Positions 55,201-62,539 of a DNA stretch of 64,000 nucleotides are shown piece by piece. The notes under the pieces are model-generated. The model did no database searches and was not told the DNA's origin. It saw nothing but the letters and a program-made list of their open reading frames with translations. The translations under genes were made by a program, and so were the position numbers. The stretch comes from Polytrichum commune (taxonomy: Eukaryota > Streptophyta > Polytrichopsida > Polytrichales > Polytrichaceae): positions 13,729,001 through 13,793,000 of the forward strand of contig OX485807.1 in the NCBI GenBank assembly GCA_950295325.1, given 5' to 3'. The first letter of the stretch is position 1. Every line of letters begins with the position of its first letter.

Positions 55201-57474
55201 TTCACTTGCATTCAGACCAGTTACTCACCAACTTAATCAACTATTCTCACAACTCACATTCGATCCAATGAAATTACACCAAAGACAATAGTTCTTAGCT
55301 TCACATAACTTTGTATTGTTCTCCATCAATTCCGAACCTCTCATACTCATAATCAAACTCGCTCATACCTCCTATTCATGTAAAGACTTCTCAATCATAA
55401 TATTATCGTCTACAACTCCACACAACAAGAAAATAGTTTGGCTAAATGTCGACATATTCGAATATAAAATATCAACTTTATCCCAAAGCTACAATACTTG
55501 TGGCATTGAGGCAATTGCTAAGTTGTTTACAAAAAAATAGTTGGACTATTAACCTCGCACAATCCATGTATCGAGGGAGACAAGACTACAAGTTTAAAAA
55601 CGTGCTCAAATGTTCCCCAAAAAAATAAAAAATGGTTGTTTGTCTCCGCCTCCCCTTGCTCCTTATGACAAGGGGCTCCTAAGGGAAGCTAGCATGTGAG
55701 TGATGAGTAATGAGTGGTAACATGTGAGCAGTGAGCAATAACATGAGATATAAGTTTTCATTTTTAGAATATGTTACACACAATTTGAATGCTTTGGCTA
55801 TAAATGAAATGCAAGGGGACATTTGACATTTGAAACTAAACATGATTACCGTGGAATTCATGCTCTACATCTTGTGAAAGGGCCTATTACCATGTAATCA
55901 ACTTGGTATTTGTAGATTCATAAATAAACCTTATTATATTAATGTAGCTTGAATGTTGGTAAATGAAACTAAAAAATAACTAAAATTACATGTACACTCG
56001 CATGTACATTTTTTTGAAAGTTCATGAAATTTATATATCAACAATGTATTAACATCACATCCTAATTATATGTTATTGACTATTATTGTTCAACAATATT
56101 TGCAACTATGTATCATTTGGATATGATGTGCATGGCCTTGTTGTAGTTCAAAGTTACAGTTGCACACATGAAGTGTTTGCCATCATGTAGTCAACCCTAC
56201 ATATAGATACATGAATACATGATACACATGTGTTTGTAGTATAACCCACTGGCATTTCTTCCCCACTGTGGCATATGTTGTAATTATTATACACTCCCAT
56301 ATGTTATTATGCTTTGCAGTATGTGCATTTGGATTGTGCCCAATTTTTGGAGTTGGAAAACAACATCTTTCATATCAAATAACTCAAATCAAGTTTCGCT
56401 TACAAATTTTACTTTCAGATTTGAGAAAGGTTTCAAATATGTCTTCATCCATATAATATAGCTCATGAAAATTTGGCCATGAAATATGCATCATTGAAGT
56501 TAGGAAAATGATAGAATCTAGATTTACCAACATATAATCTTTTAAGCTATAAGGTAAGCACGAATACCCATTAAAAAAATGAAGCTTTTGGATTGCAATG
56601 TGCATATCTACATCTACTTTAAAATTCTCATTTGCCATTTTATTTGTAGACAACAACAAATCATAAGAATCAATAATTCTTCCTTTCATATATTATGAAC
56701 ATCAATGCCTCTAAAAATCCCCTTTTATACACTCATGTAGTTTAATTTGTGGTGTCCAAAGAACATACTTATCTCCTACAAATCATAGCACCTTATTCAT
56801 ATGTAGATAACTAGGTGGAGCAATGCCCCTCCCATATGTATACTTTGTAAGCCATTTTTTAAATAGGAACCTTGATTACTAGATCGTAGGCTAGTAATGT
56901 ATGTACTTTATGTATGTTTGGTTGGATTGTTGGATGCAAGCACATATGTTCTAGAACAATAAACGTTGTAAGTAAAAAACTAAAAATCACAAGAACTAAT
57001 GTGTGCTAAACATTTACGTCCCCTACGCCGTCTTAATAACGATAGGACCGATGACCCGAAATAAAATAAAACGGTGTTATGTATAACAATTGGGTGCAAT
57101 CAAATCAAGTTCATGCACTATATACCCTCCCCCCGCCCCCCCCCCCCCTCCAACAAACAAACAAACAAACCAACCAAAAAAAAAAAACCAAAAAAAACCA
57201 AAAAACCAAAAACCTCTTAACACATATGTATATCACAACATATAAGTTGTCCTCCCTAAGAACCTACCAAGAGCATGTGAACAATTCATTGTCTCTATTT
57301 GAAAGGCCATAATCTCAACTATTTTGAAAGATTATGAAACCTTCCTTTGTGCCCCCACTAGAATACAACCACCAACATAGAATGACATGGTATTGTGTTT
57401 CAACATCCTCCATTGTATTGCGTGCATCTAATTCTTGCAAGGTTTTGTGCTAAAGCTACAGCCATAATTACATG
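52276..57474. other. Gene-free stretch
   Basis: No gene, RNA or clear mobile element is supported. A run of 15 G lies at 53381-53395 and a poly-C run at 57136-57148. The segment 54.4-55.3 kb is pyrimidine-rich on the plus strand. Open frames are short and lack domains. Confidence 0.55.
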
Positions 57475-57487
57475 TGTTGTTGCGTGA

Positions 57488-57859
57488 GCACCACGGGCCT
57501 TGGCTTGGTGGTTAGGGCTCATGGCCCCCAATGAGGAGGTTGTGGGTTCTATTCCCCATGCCGGCGTGGTGCTCACCACCTTAGTCCACCCAACTATGAT
57601 GGGGGGTCCTTGGACCTTGTTGTATGGGTACCTCAAAGCCCTTTGGGGGGATACCATGTCCGGTATCTTCAAGGCACTAGTGGCTAGCTAGGAACTAGTA
57701 TAGTGTGTCACTATAGTGTCCATCCTCGAAAGGGGAGAGTAGTATTGTCCCAGTGTCCCCTTGTCCAGTGGGCATCGGGTCATTGGCATTACGAACGGAC
57801 ACTTTATTCACGCCGGCCCCTTGCTAAAAAAGGGACCGGAGTTTCTATCTATCTATCTA
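57488..57859 (+). mobile_element. tRNA-derived SINE, full length, with target-site duplication
   Basis: Near the 5' end TGGCTTGGTGGTTAGG (57501-57516) matches a tRNA/SINE A box, and GGGTTCTATTCCC (57544-57556) matches a B box at the right spacing. A body of about 280 bp follows and ends in a (TCTA)n tail. The insertion is flanked by TGTTGTTGCGTGA (57475-57487) and TGTTGTTGGGTGA (57860-57872), which match at 12 of 13 positions. The last 85 bp are shared with the truncated copy at 60805-60896. SINEs are transcribed by RNA polymerase III and moved by a LINE's enzymes. Confidence 0.9.
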
Positions 57860-57872
57860 TGTTGTTGGGTGA

Positions 57873-58309
57873 TCTTTATCCAAATCATAGTTGGGTCGCA
57901 ATCTCTTCGGATTGTGTATCACAACAATCAACAATCCATATTGTATATTATTTGGTATTGCACCCATCGCATGAAATTGCAGTTTATTCTTCAAATGTTG
58001 ACCATGGTCACATCTTTCAAATGCTCAAACTTCAAGCAACAGTAGCCCTTAAGGATCATGATATGAGCGATCCATCGTTTTGATACTTATTGGAATGAAA
58101 TTATCGAACCCCTAAACATATCAAGGTCAATATCCCAAATTTATGCACAAACATACTTTTGTTCTCTAGTTGATACCCAAGATTCCAACGAGATGTTGCC
58201 CCAAAAAATAGAAGTCAATCCCCTCATGAAAATTAAGAAACTCAACATTTTGAGCACCTAGAAGTTGGTTTCGAATTTTGACGCACATTTTAAATGCTAT
58301 AAAATGGCT
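57873..58309. other. Intergenic stretch
   Basis: Nothing is recognised between the SINE and the tandem array. Confidence 0.5.
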
Positions 58310-59830
58310 TTAAGAACTTTTTAAAATATAAGGAATGAATTTGAATGAAACAAAACGGAATTTAATTTTGGTAACAATTTCTTTTTTCTTTTTCTTTATT
58401 GATTTATAAATTGTCCTTGTACCATTTCCCGATGTTTTAAAAATGAGTGTACAAATCTTCAAAAATTTGAAATTAGTCACCTCGGTGCCGACATGACTAA
58501 TATCAACATTTGGGTACTCTGAAGTTTCTCTGTAAATTTCCTTTATATTTGTCAAGTTGTTTACGAATGGCCCTTGCAATGTTGCCGAAGGTTTTCAAAG
58601 TGATTTTGAAAACTCTCCAAAAAATTGAAATTAGTCATCTTAGTGCCAAGATGACTAATATCAACATTGGGTACTCTTAAGTTTCTCTGGAAATTTCCTT
58701 CATTTTCTCAAATAATTACCAAATGGCCTTCGTGATACTTCCCAAGGCTTTAAAAAAATCCAATTTTACAGAATATTCAAATTAGTCACCTAATGTCAAG
58801 GTGACTAATATCAAAATGAGTACTCTTAAGTTTCTAAAAAAACCCATTATTTTTCTCAAATTGTTTGCAATTAAAATGGCCCCATACCACTTTCCAAGGC
58901 TTTAGAAAACAATTTTACAAATCTTCAAAAACTGGAATTAGGCACCTCCGTGTTGAAGTGCCTAATATCAAAATTTGGGTACTCTTAAGCTCCTCTTAAA
59001 ATTTCTTTAATTTTCTCAAAACATTTACAAATGGTTGTCATATTGCTTCCTAGGGCTTTAAAAAAACATTCTACAAATCTTCAAAAAATTGAAATTAGTC
59101 ACCTCGGTGCCATGGTGACTAATATCAACATTTGGGTACATTTTAGTCTCTCTCATAGATTCTTTTATTTTTCCTCAAACTATTTACAAATGGCCCTTCC
59201 AATGCTTGCTAGGTTATGAAAGTGATTTTGAAAACTCTCCATAAATTTGAAATGAGTGATCTTGGTGCCAGGATGATTAATATCAAAATTTGGATACTCC
59301 TATGTTTCTCTAGGATTTTCTTTTATTTTTCTCAAATTGTTTACAAATGACCCTCATAGTGTTGCCCGGGGATTTCAAATTAATTTTGAAAACTCTCCAA
59401 AAATTTGAAATTAATCATCACGGTGCCAAGATGACTAGTATCAACACTTGGGTACCCTTAAGTTACTCTCACATTTTCCTTTATGTTTCTCAATGTTTTA
59501 AAAAATGGTGATTTTGAAAACTCATGGAAATTTTGAAATTAGTCATTTTGACTACAAATGGCCTTGGAATCAATTCCCAAGGATTTTGAAGCGACCCTAA
59601 CAGATCTCCAAAAAAATGATATGAGGTGATTTCTATCAACATCTTGGTAACCTTAAAAGTTGGCAATTTTTTTTTATTTAGTTCTCTCAAATGCATATCA
59701 TTTTCAAGGGCTTTCAAAGTGACCTTGAAAAACCTCCAAAACTTTAAAATTTGTATGCTTAGTGCCACGTATACAAATATCAACATTTGGGTTACTTTGG
59801 AGATAGCTCAAGACAAGTTTACTTTCCTCA
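58310..59830. repeat. Tandem array of about 158-bp units, each with a hairpin
   Basis: Units with the order CTCAAA-TGTTTACAAATGGCC, GCTTTNAAA, TTTTACAAATCTTCAAAAA-TTGAA, ATTAGTCACCTCGGTGCCAAGGTGACTAAT (shown with consensus bases) and ATCAACATTTGGGTACTCTTAAGTTTCTC repeat with anchors at 58495, 58653, 58802, 58959, 59117, 59275 and 59433. More diverged units follow to about 59830. The spacing is 149-158 bp. Each unit holds a hairpin with arms of 8-12 bp. In several units both arms differ from the consensus but still pair. Short frames exist on both strands but none spans the array. Confidence 0.85.
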
Positions 59831-60792
59831 AATGCTTTGTAATTGATGTTGTAAAAACCTCAATACGGGTTCCTATGGCAAGGAGATGTGCTTTACTAAG
59901 TAGTTAGCCAAAGGTAGAATTAGGTTTCTTTTGAGAAGGCAAGCACAACTATTAGCAAATGAGAAGATTTGTGAATGATAAATACAAGAGCGGTGTTTGT
60001 AACCCTTAGGACGGCCACATAAGAAGTGGTGGTCATGATATTGAACCGAGGGTTTCTGAGGCCACATATCCTAGTACCTACTTAGAAAGTGTAAAAGTGG
60101 GTGAGCAGTACAAGAGAGAGGTGAAGTTTTGCAGTGTACAACATTGCTAATGAGTGTAACAATGTTGGTTCTTGGAATATTAGTATTTGGGTTTGAAGGG
60201 TTTCCTAACTTGTTCGTGGTTATAGTAAGGCTTGTCAAAGCAATTAGTTCCAAGAAGTCTTGGAGAGACAGGACTTATACATGTCTTACATTATTTTCTC
60301 TAATAATAAGAAGTATCTATCACATTAGTGCGAGATTTAAGAGGAATAAGTTGGTCAACCTTCAATATCACTACCAGCTAGGGACCCACCATCTATAATA
60401 TAGTCCAATAATTGTGGTCATATATAGACTAAGTTAAGAAGCTAGAAGTAAATATGGTAGATCAATCACATGTTGGAGGGTTATAATGTTGCCGGTATAA
60501 GAGTGAGTAAATCAAAAGACATATGATATAACTAGTACAAAGATGTGGTTGTAAGTAAGTAAAATTATAAGATCAAACATCGACAAGTCTCGACCAATAT
60601 CAAGGGGTGAGCAGTACTAGCACAACCTTCAACAATAGTATCACCGGTAACATGCTAGTAATACGGTCTAGGTAGTAGGGTGATGTAGACTGGAAGGGGT
60701 AGCTAACTTGGGTAGTAGAGAGAATTCCAATAGAGTTACCGATTTCAATTCATTTCCTAAATCTACATGAAATCTATAGTTATAATCTAGAG
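59831..60792. other. Gene-free stretch
   Basis: Nothing is recognised apart from short unsupported frames. Confidence 0.5.
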
Positions 60793-60804
60793 TATGCTCA
60801 ATAC

Positions 60805-60896
60805 GGCCATCGGGTTCACTGGCATTACGAACGGACACTTTATTCACGCCGGCCCCTTGCTAAAAAGGGACCGGAGTTTCTCTTTCTTTCTTTCTT
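60805..60896 (+). mobile_element. 5'-truncated SINE-tail insertion with perfect target-site duplication
   Basis: This 92-bp insertion matches the 3' end of the SINE at 57488-57859 (GGCATTACGAACGGACACTT, CACGCCGGCCCCTTGCTAAAAA, GGGACCGGAGTTTCT) and ends in a (TTTC)n tail. It is flanked by identical 12-bp copies of TATGCTCAATAC at 60793-60804 and 60897-60908. 5' truncation is typical of target-primed reverse transcription. The tail differs (TTTC against TCTA), so the simple repeat varies between copies. Confidence 0.92.
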
Positions 60897-60908
60897 TATG
60901 CTCAATAC

Positions 60909-62539
60909 TAATGCTTGGAACGTGCTTGCATTTTTTTTAAAAGAAATTGAATGTTGAATCTAACAACAATGTCAAAATCATCTCCAAACTCTCATGCCAT
61001 GCTTGTGGTTGTTGATTTTAAATGTAAAATAAGGCATTTATTAGGTTAATTGCAGCTTGTGCCCAGGAGCTTGTGTGAACTTCCCACTCATATTATTATA
61101 AACAAAGATGTCGATCTTTATGCCAATATACAATAATTATAGGATACTAGTGAGTGTATCTCCACATGTCTTGCCAACCTCACCACTCATCTGTTAGCAC
61201 TCCCTAGCGCTCCTGAGCCCACGATTATAGTTCTAATTGCCTAACTCCGTCCATAGTTCACAACTTCCATTCATATAAGTACAATCTTCAGCCAAATATC
61301 ACTAAAACGCCTATAATGAAACTACTAGCTTAAAATTTTGGCTCACATGAGCCATCGGTGGTTTTGTGATTCACGCATTTAAACTCAAAAATCAAAGGAG
61401 AGTTGCAGAATGGCAAGATGGAAATACTACACACAAGTACACACCTTTCAATCCATTCAATGAAAATGCTTTGAAGCATTTCATATCCCAACATTTATTG
61501 ATTGGGTCCATTTTAACATTAGAGTTAACTTCAAATCCCCCAAATTTCTTCGGAACATCAAGATTGAGATGAATCAACATCGAACCTATACTTAGCATGC
61601 TTATTGTTAACACGGATGGATGTTGGGCACACTCACATGCAATAGTTCCCTCTCACCAAATGGAAACACTGGACACCATCCAAAAGTATCATCCACGTTT
61701 GAGTCACAATATCATCGGTTCACCCCCGATAAGTACACTGATATGTGCAATCAGGTCGTCTTCGTGAACACGTCGCCTCTTTACCCATGCAAATTACCTT
61801 TGCTCAAAACCAAACCACAAAACTTATAGCATTTGTTTCTTCATTCACAATGCAACCACAATAAAAACAAAAAAATCTTACATTCTATTAGAATTGCGTT
61901 AACAAGTAATTGGAAAATAGTGTGGAATTAATGTCGATGAGTTTACGGGGGGGCACCTAACGCGCTCCCATTGGAGGTTGGAAAATTGAAATTGGTTAGG
62001 AATTTATGTGAAACTCGCATGGGCCTTTTTGAAATTGATTGGGGTACGAGCTAGCACCACAAATGGTTTTTGTGATGCGATTGGATCGGATTGAGGGGAG
62101 GGGGGGATGGCGATGACGGTTGGTCGGCATTATGGGACGAGGATGGGCCACAATCCGCCACTTAACACCCGTACTTAATTCGTACCCCGATTAATGTACT
62201 AATCATGGACACCGGTGCAAGTGCCGCCCTCTAAATAGCCGCTCGAGATTACTTAACTTTTTAGGCTTGTGAGGATGTCCCTATAAAGCTTTAGGACTCG
62301 GGCGTAGTCTTTCCCACACAATGCGTACTTAAGTACCCGACCGTACCCTAAAGTACCCTAGAGGCCTCTCTATCTCCACCAATAACAACAACAACAACAT
62401 CCCCCTTTAAAAGAAACCCCCTTCAATTGTGCCACGTGTCGTGCTTGCATTGGTGAGACCGGCCCTGTATCTGACGTGAAATATCCATTTCAGCACTAAC
62501 TTTAGTAAAGATGAAATAGAGAAATAGAGGGCCTTCTAC
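60909..62539. other. Gene-free stretch
   Basis: No gene is supported. ATG-less or short frames at 61366-61829 show no domain. Confidence 0.5.

Follow-up and report, generated by a model that had tools for sequence, protein, structure and literature searches.

The tandem array at 58434-59845 on the + strand of the window (the whole 64,000-nucleotide stretch analysed, C5:13729001-13793000 of a 408 Mb genome) is an internal part of an old, apparently non-autonomous inverted-repeat DNA transposon, and has been dispersed with that element. We consider it quite probable that the palindromic repeat carried by this transposon is decaying neutrally. It would then be a repeat like those of other mobile elements, rather than an RNA structure under preservation, and a template switch may have occurred once in its distant past. 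No current function is indicated for the pairing of its arms.

The array comprises about ten units, mostly of 150-158 bp. TRF reports a period of about 158 bp at 58434-59493; beyond this block, a profile search finds degenerate units and then distinct last ones, reaching about 59845. The preliminary description of this region had placed the array at 58310-59830: an array is indeed present, but this start is slightly early, repeat similarity beginning at about 58385-58435. The window array opens with a first-type unit, continues with units of the interior types A and B and then a truncated one (near 59508-59550), and closes with a penultimate and a last type.

The unit consensus, TTGAAATTAGTCACCTCGG-TG-CCGAGGTGACTAATATCAA, reads as a near-perfect palindrome of 40 bp in which a single mismatch, A.A, is constant. 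What had been described as the loop of a hairpin is actually the decayed inner stem of this palindrome, and contains CpG. Eight hairpins in the window were verified letter by letter, all given here on the + strand. The first unit (58467-58506, of the first type) has mismatches at pairs 13 and 14, yet folds (z -3.77). It is followed by the hairpins at 58625-58664, 58776-58814 (third unit), 58932-58971 (with GGCAC/GTGCC), 59089-59128 (fifth unit), 59247-59286 and 59405-59444, among which those at 58625-58664, 59247-59286 and 59405-59444 have pair 13 in the T-A state. The last-unit type, ATTTGTATGC / GTATACAAAT, lies at 59744-59783. Between the last two hairpins, the penultimate unit retains a remnant (59616-59639) whose left arm and centre are deleted, a deletion common to units of other elements. 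Folded as RNA and compared with shuffled sequences, eight of nine unit windows have negative z-scores (-1.56 to -6.27). The weakest of these eight is 59395-59454, where 15 of 200 shuffles fold as well, and the window at 59590-59650, which holds the penultimate remnant, folds no better than its shuffles (z +0.56).

A genome-wide search for the unit, which the preliminary description had called for, returned at least 100 matches at no fewer than about 34 places, a lower bound based on our own grouping of the matches listed. One of these places (C6:26265755) was left out of the locus set, and two loci that carry units, L014 and L022, were added by other routes. The 35 loci examined hold from 1 to 14 unit matches each. 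We collected 251 non-overlapping matches, dropped 48 in which the hairpin was not covered and kept 203 units; removal of 20 last-type and 20 gapped units left a standard set of 163.

Unit types occupy fixed places in these arrays. The last type is the last unit in 20 of the 20 loci that carry it, 13 of the 14 penultimate-type units, with their left arm lost, are the last but one, and the first type, with mismatched pairs 13 and 14, comes first in 10 of 10. The types were defined only after the sequences had been seen, and the first type was chosen by its pairing-breaking motif, so that its position in the array is its only independent result. Since this order is common to the loci, it predates dispersal. 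The tree of units is weakly supported inside arrays.

The host element extends over 55681-61205 (+ strand), about 5.5 kb including later insertions. Its similarity to other loci ends near both positions, and its ends are inverted (GGGAAGCTAGCATGTGAG.. / ..GTTAGCACTCCC). The flanking sequences GGGGCTCCT (55672-55680) and AGCGCTCCT (61206-61214) agree at 7 of 9 positions and are probable copies of a target-site duplication; the end positions were placed on the model of two sister elements, A and B, both of which have exact duplications. No open frame across the element exceeds 131 aa, which is why we regard it as apparently non-autonomous. Element sequence outside the array is common to the window and 11 of the 12 loci fetched first. 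At the twelfth (L011), the only sequence shared outside the array, within its 6 kb, is a repeat inserted in the window element at 57488-57860 (+ strand), where it is 98.4% identical to the L011 copy over 373 bp. We read this insertion as SINE-like from its tRNA-like start; a tRNA search of the window gave no match. The insertion is much younger than the host element. A second SINE-like insertion (60804-60891, + strand) matches the terminal part of the first over about 90 bp (91%).

The element probably belongs to the Mutator-like superfamily. Family copies have target-site duplications of 9-10 bp, within the 8-10 bp range of Mutator-like elements (MULEs): besides the 7/9 of the window, matches are 8/9 in L013, 7/10 in L014 and 9/10 in L017, and the younger sister copies A and B have 10/10 and 9/9. 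A copy pieced together from L003 and L044 shows no clear duplication by eye. Inverted ends are present, the longest seen measuring 45 bp at 82% in sister A, and a genome search for a 20-base end pattern, with no more than 3 mismatches, gives 791 matches, versus 5 for its reversed control. The sister elements, about 9.4 kb long, have the same ends; the protein that they code for bears a SWIM-like motif. The window element shares with these coding sisters a terminal motif and 69% identity over 276 bp at the right end, as a non-autonomous MULE shares the ends of a coding member. The sister protein scores 13.0 bits against Pfam SWIM, below the cut-off of 19.6, and has no match to the Pfam MULE domain nor to any other Pfam domain above cut-off; on our reading only, it would carry DDE-like motifs.

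It was the search with the sister A protein, and not a search for the MULE domain, that identified the coding partner. The protein search gave 2472 candidate places, of which 146 were scored; among the matches listed, 15 inverted-repeat ends have a protein match 5-14 kb inward. The MULE-domain search of the genome gave 142 matches from the best 150 of 271 candidates; only two of these lie near a listed family place, at most about 8 kb away, a number close to chance level by a rough estimate, and no partner was identified that way. The transposase-like protein family is very numerous (L046, L048-L050), with open frames of up to several hundred amino acids, including 742 and 455 aa in L048; a search of solved structures with the 742-aa frame found no relative at E<=1.

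Several further observations concern the family at large. The same ends are found in a sister subfamily whose tandem array is unrelated, consisting of 5.6 copies of a 359-bp unit (L020:2622-4644, that is C1:4037621-4039643), and these units also hold inverted repeats, with arms of 38-57 nt that are 74-83% complementary. Palindromes in internal arrays may be recurrent in this transposon group. Left-end matches at C3:17883744, 17889288 and 17894832 have an exact spacing of 5544 bp and identical scores, perhaps representing whole elements in tandem or a larger tandem segment. At another locus (C6:6613265-6613944), a left-end piece of about 124 bp is present three times in tandem.

Is the pairing of the arms maintained beyond what the history of the units would produce? 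The preliminary description proposed so, from compensatory changes in at least three units, and on the window data alone this impression is fair. The eight window hairpins have a covariation score of 0.276 versus 0.135 when shuffled, and 7 pairs with two-sided changes versus 3.1 after column shuffling; in each case, none of 500 shuffles reached the observed value. The arms also pair in most genomic copies: over all 203 units, 2346 of 3323 cells are Watson-Crick paired. But in the 163 standard units from 35 loci, pairing is as frequent as independent decay predicts: 2011 of 2872 cells are paired, versus 2002.9 expected from column composition alone. Nor are matched changes in both arms, the mark of hairpins maintained by template switching, in excess in the standard units: the exact partner is found for 61 of 526 left-arm changes, versus 73.7 expected (the A.A pair and pair 13 left out).

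We then compared each stem pair with a null in which every column evolved independently, simulated on a tree built from the unit flanks. With the last-unit type set aside, 18 of 19 pairs (counting the constant A.A) show no significant excess of pairing. Only pair 13 exceeds this null (p=0.002 for excess pairing and 0.028 for the G-test, uncorrected); when the last units are included, pairs 8, 11, 12 and 13 do so, with p from 0.001 to 0.007. Column 13 has stronger links to three columns of the flanks (G 72, 59 and 50) than to the column with which it pairs (G 21), and we therefore read pair 13 as a marker of a unit subfamily, type B. The best stem pair ranks only 443rd among 11628 column pairs.

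The three arm variants singled out in the preliminary description (at 58640, 58937 and near 59750) are all present in the sequence, but they are not three independent compensations. The first, in the hairpin at 58625-58664, is the T-A state of pair 13, shared with the hairpins at 59247 and 59405 and typical of type B in many elements: a subfamily marker. The second, at 58932-58971, is a coincidence by genome-wide counts, pair 10 being paired 114 times versus 114.1 expected in the 203 units. When the first- and last-unit classes are left out, 45 units have a G in the left arm at this pair; opposite it, A is retained in 39, 4 have C and 2 a gap. In the third, at 59744-59783, both arms did change together, but as one inherited last-unit type. 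The apparent compensatory changes are thus mostly differences between types fixed before dispersal, plus chance.

A weak but continuing process would have been visible at this sample size. In simulations run at a fitting rate, matching of 5% of arm substitutions gives a summed excess of about 66 (sd 28); the observed value is -17.6, within the lowest 2% or so of the simulation without covariation, so that this model is itself imperfect. Together with the tree null, this power simulation leaves ongoing selection on pairing, and ongoing correction of one arm by the other, unsupported. Ongoing maintenance of pairing was accordingly rejected, on the counts of paired cells and of matched changes, the tree null and the power simulation. 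Units with more diverged flanks do not have a smaller share of paired cells (rho 0.000, n=163); this says little, because arm identity is likewise flat across quartiles of flank identity. We looked for conservation specific to the hairpin and found none: hairpin columns score 0.800, the rest of the unit 0.786. The unit also contains a second small palindrome, whose 8 pairs show no general covariation; one of them, which includes a column strongly linked to subfamilies, exceeds independence (61 versus 46.0).

Selection for an RNA structure is expected to make G.T mismatches exceed A.C mismatches on the transcribed strand. If the units made a structured RNA, such as a small-RNA precursor or a structured transcript with pairing kept by selection, the strong folds predicted for most window units would be explained, as would the two non-Watson-Crick pairs of the last type, both of them G.T, a pair possible in RNA from the + strand. 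Yet the standard units hold 218 G.T versus 257 A.C mismatches (binomial p=0.08), which runs against a + strand RNA, and the outer pairs 141 versus 151 (p=0.60). As the two kinds are similar in number, no RNA strand is indicated, even though single pairs are lopsided (20 versus 4 at pair 3, 24 versus 42 at pair 16). There is no covariation within unit types, and the units display neither compensatory changes at several pairs nor a preference for G.U over A.C. At gathering thresholds, no Rfam family matches the window. We consider a structured RNA very improbable, the least favoured of the explanations weighed here.

The palindrome could also have acted as a DNA-level dyad, for instance a paired binding site for a transposase or a protein of the host, under selection as long as the element remained active. 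The retention of the consensus palindrome in several unit types (A, B and last) is consistent with such a role, and so is the presence of inverted repeats in the different, 359-bp array of the sister subfamily. On the other hand, the hairpin is conserved no better than its flanks, and units with an incomplete palindrome were inherited at fixed positions. Moreover, L013 and L017 are target-duplicated copies that show no array match between their flanking matches: the array may be needless for movement, although loss of the array after insertion would also fit. These observations leave a selected dyad improbable, if a little less so than an RNA.

Template switching, or quasipalindrome correction, would copy one arm onto the other and so keep or restore pairing; such a mechanism at hairpins is described in PMC8794818. 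The last-unit type is where it finds support. Relative to the type B consensus, this type has 5 changes in the left arm and 4 in the right, and all 4 right-arm changes are at partners of changed left-arm positions (hypergeometric p=0.0013; the contrast was chosen post hoc, though the unit had been named in the preliminary description). Its consensus pairs everywhere except at the constant A.A, if two G.T pairs are counted; to us, these suggest that C changed to T twice in a right arm that otherwise matches. Both arms of this type changed together once, before dispersal; one template switch, replacement of the palindrome or selection at that time could each explain the change. As a steady process, template switching is not supported by the 163 standard units, where matched changes are not in excess. 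The palindrome centre is TG in 139 of these 163 units and CA in 2, with no sign of the spacer inversion mentioned in PMC8604942. The first type, with its mismatches at pairs 13 and 14, and the penultimate type, with an arm lost, also stayed uncorrected. Arm correction, as the preliminary description had envisaged it, is thus unsupported as an ongoing process and unlikely overall, but a rare event in the founding element fits the last type and may explain it.

Returning to neutral decay of a transposon-borne repeat, the history we propose is as follows. A founding unit held the near-perfect 40-bp palindrome still visible in the consensus. This unit would have multiplied in tandem and then diverged into a few types; palindrome and multiplication alike may have arisen by replication slippage, or by template switching at the palindrome of the founding element. 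The fixed-order array already existed before the element spread through the genome, as the shared order shows, and transposition would then have copied it as a block. Since the spread, left and right arms within a unit have, within the power of our tests, decayed independently. Some observations stand against this explanation: the excess at pair 13 without the last units and at pairs 8, 11, 12 and 13 with them, the concerted arms of the last type, the one pair of the second palindrome above independence, the lack of shared element sequence at L011, the low summed excess relative to the model without covariation and, ambiguously, the flat share of paired cells.

We also propose, tentatively and as the less probable history, that palindromes were rewritten in concert in the founding transposon, before dispersal. 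The last unit would have acquired matching changes in its two arms at four positions of the stem, and type B at a single one, the simplest route being inter-arm template switching during replication; the shared type would then be a dated footprint of this arm copying, with any maintenance lost once the element stopped moving. If the last-unit event was truly a template switch, dispersed arrays of fixed order offer many dated copies of one event.

These results call for caution with tandem arrays generally: covariation that beats column shuffling (0 of 500) can vanish when units are sampled genome-wide, because subfamilies and position-specific units mimic compensation.

How does this element compare with known systems? 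The last-unit type resembles the hairpins maintained by template switching in PMC8794818 in the concerted, multi-base change of both arms; unlike what that source describes, there is no signal in the bulk of the units and no conserved RNA gene. With Mutator-like elements as presented in PMC5225508, the family shares terminal inverted repeats, target duplications of 8-10 bp and non-autonomous members with varied interiors. It departs from them in its inverted repeats, typically over 100 bp in that account and about 45 bp here in a sister copy, and in a family protein that has no Pfam MULE match. Cg_HINE of the Pacific oyster offers a likeness for the array: dispersed satellite-like arrays are there reported to be the central repeats of a non-autonomous element, and related elements carry different repeats (PMC7492417). 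Cg_HINE belongs to the Helentron superfamily according to the same source, whereas the window element has inverted ends and target duplications of 9-10 bp. Tetris, a foldback element from Drosophila virilis whose internal tandem repeats measure 220 bp, is likewise an apparently non-autonomous DNA transposon with a short internal tandem array (PMC4079207). Its repeats are described as sitting in the terminal inverted repeats and as having seeded long satellite arrays, while the window array is internal and the ends of its host are short. Short tandem arrays inside non-autonomous transposons are thus already known, and the window element, whose superfamily assignment is probable only, is a further example of them.
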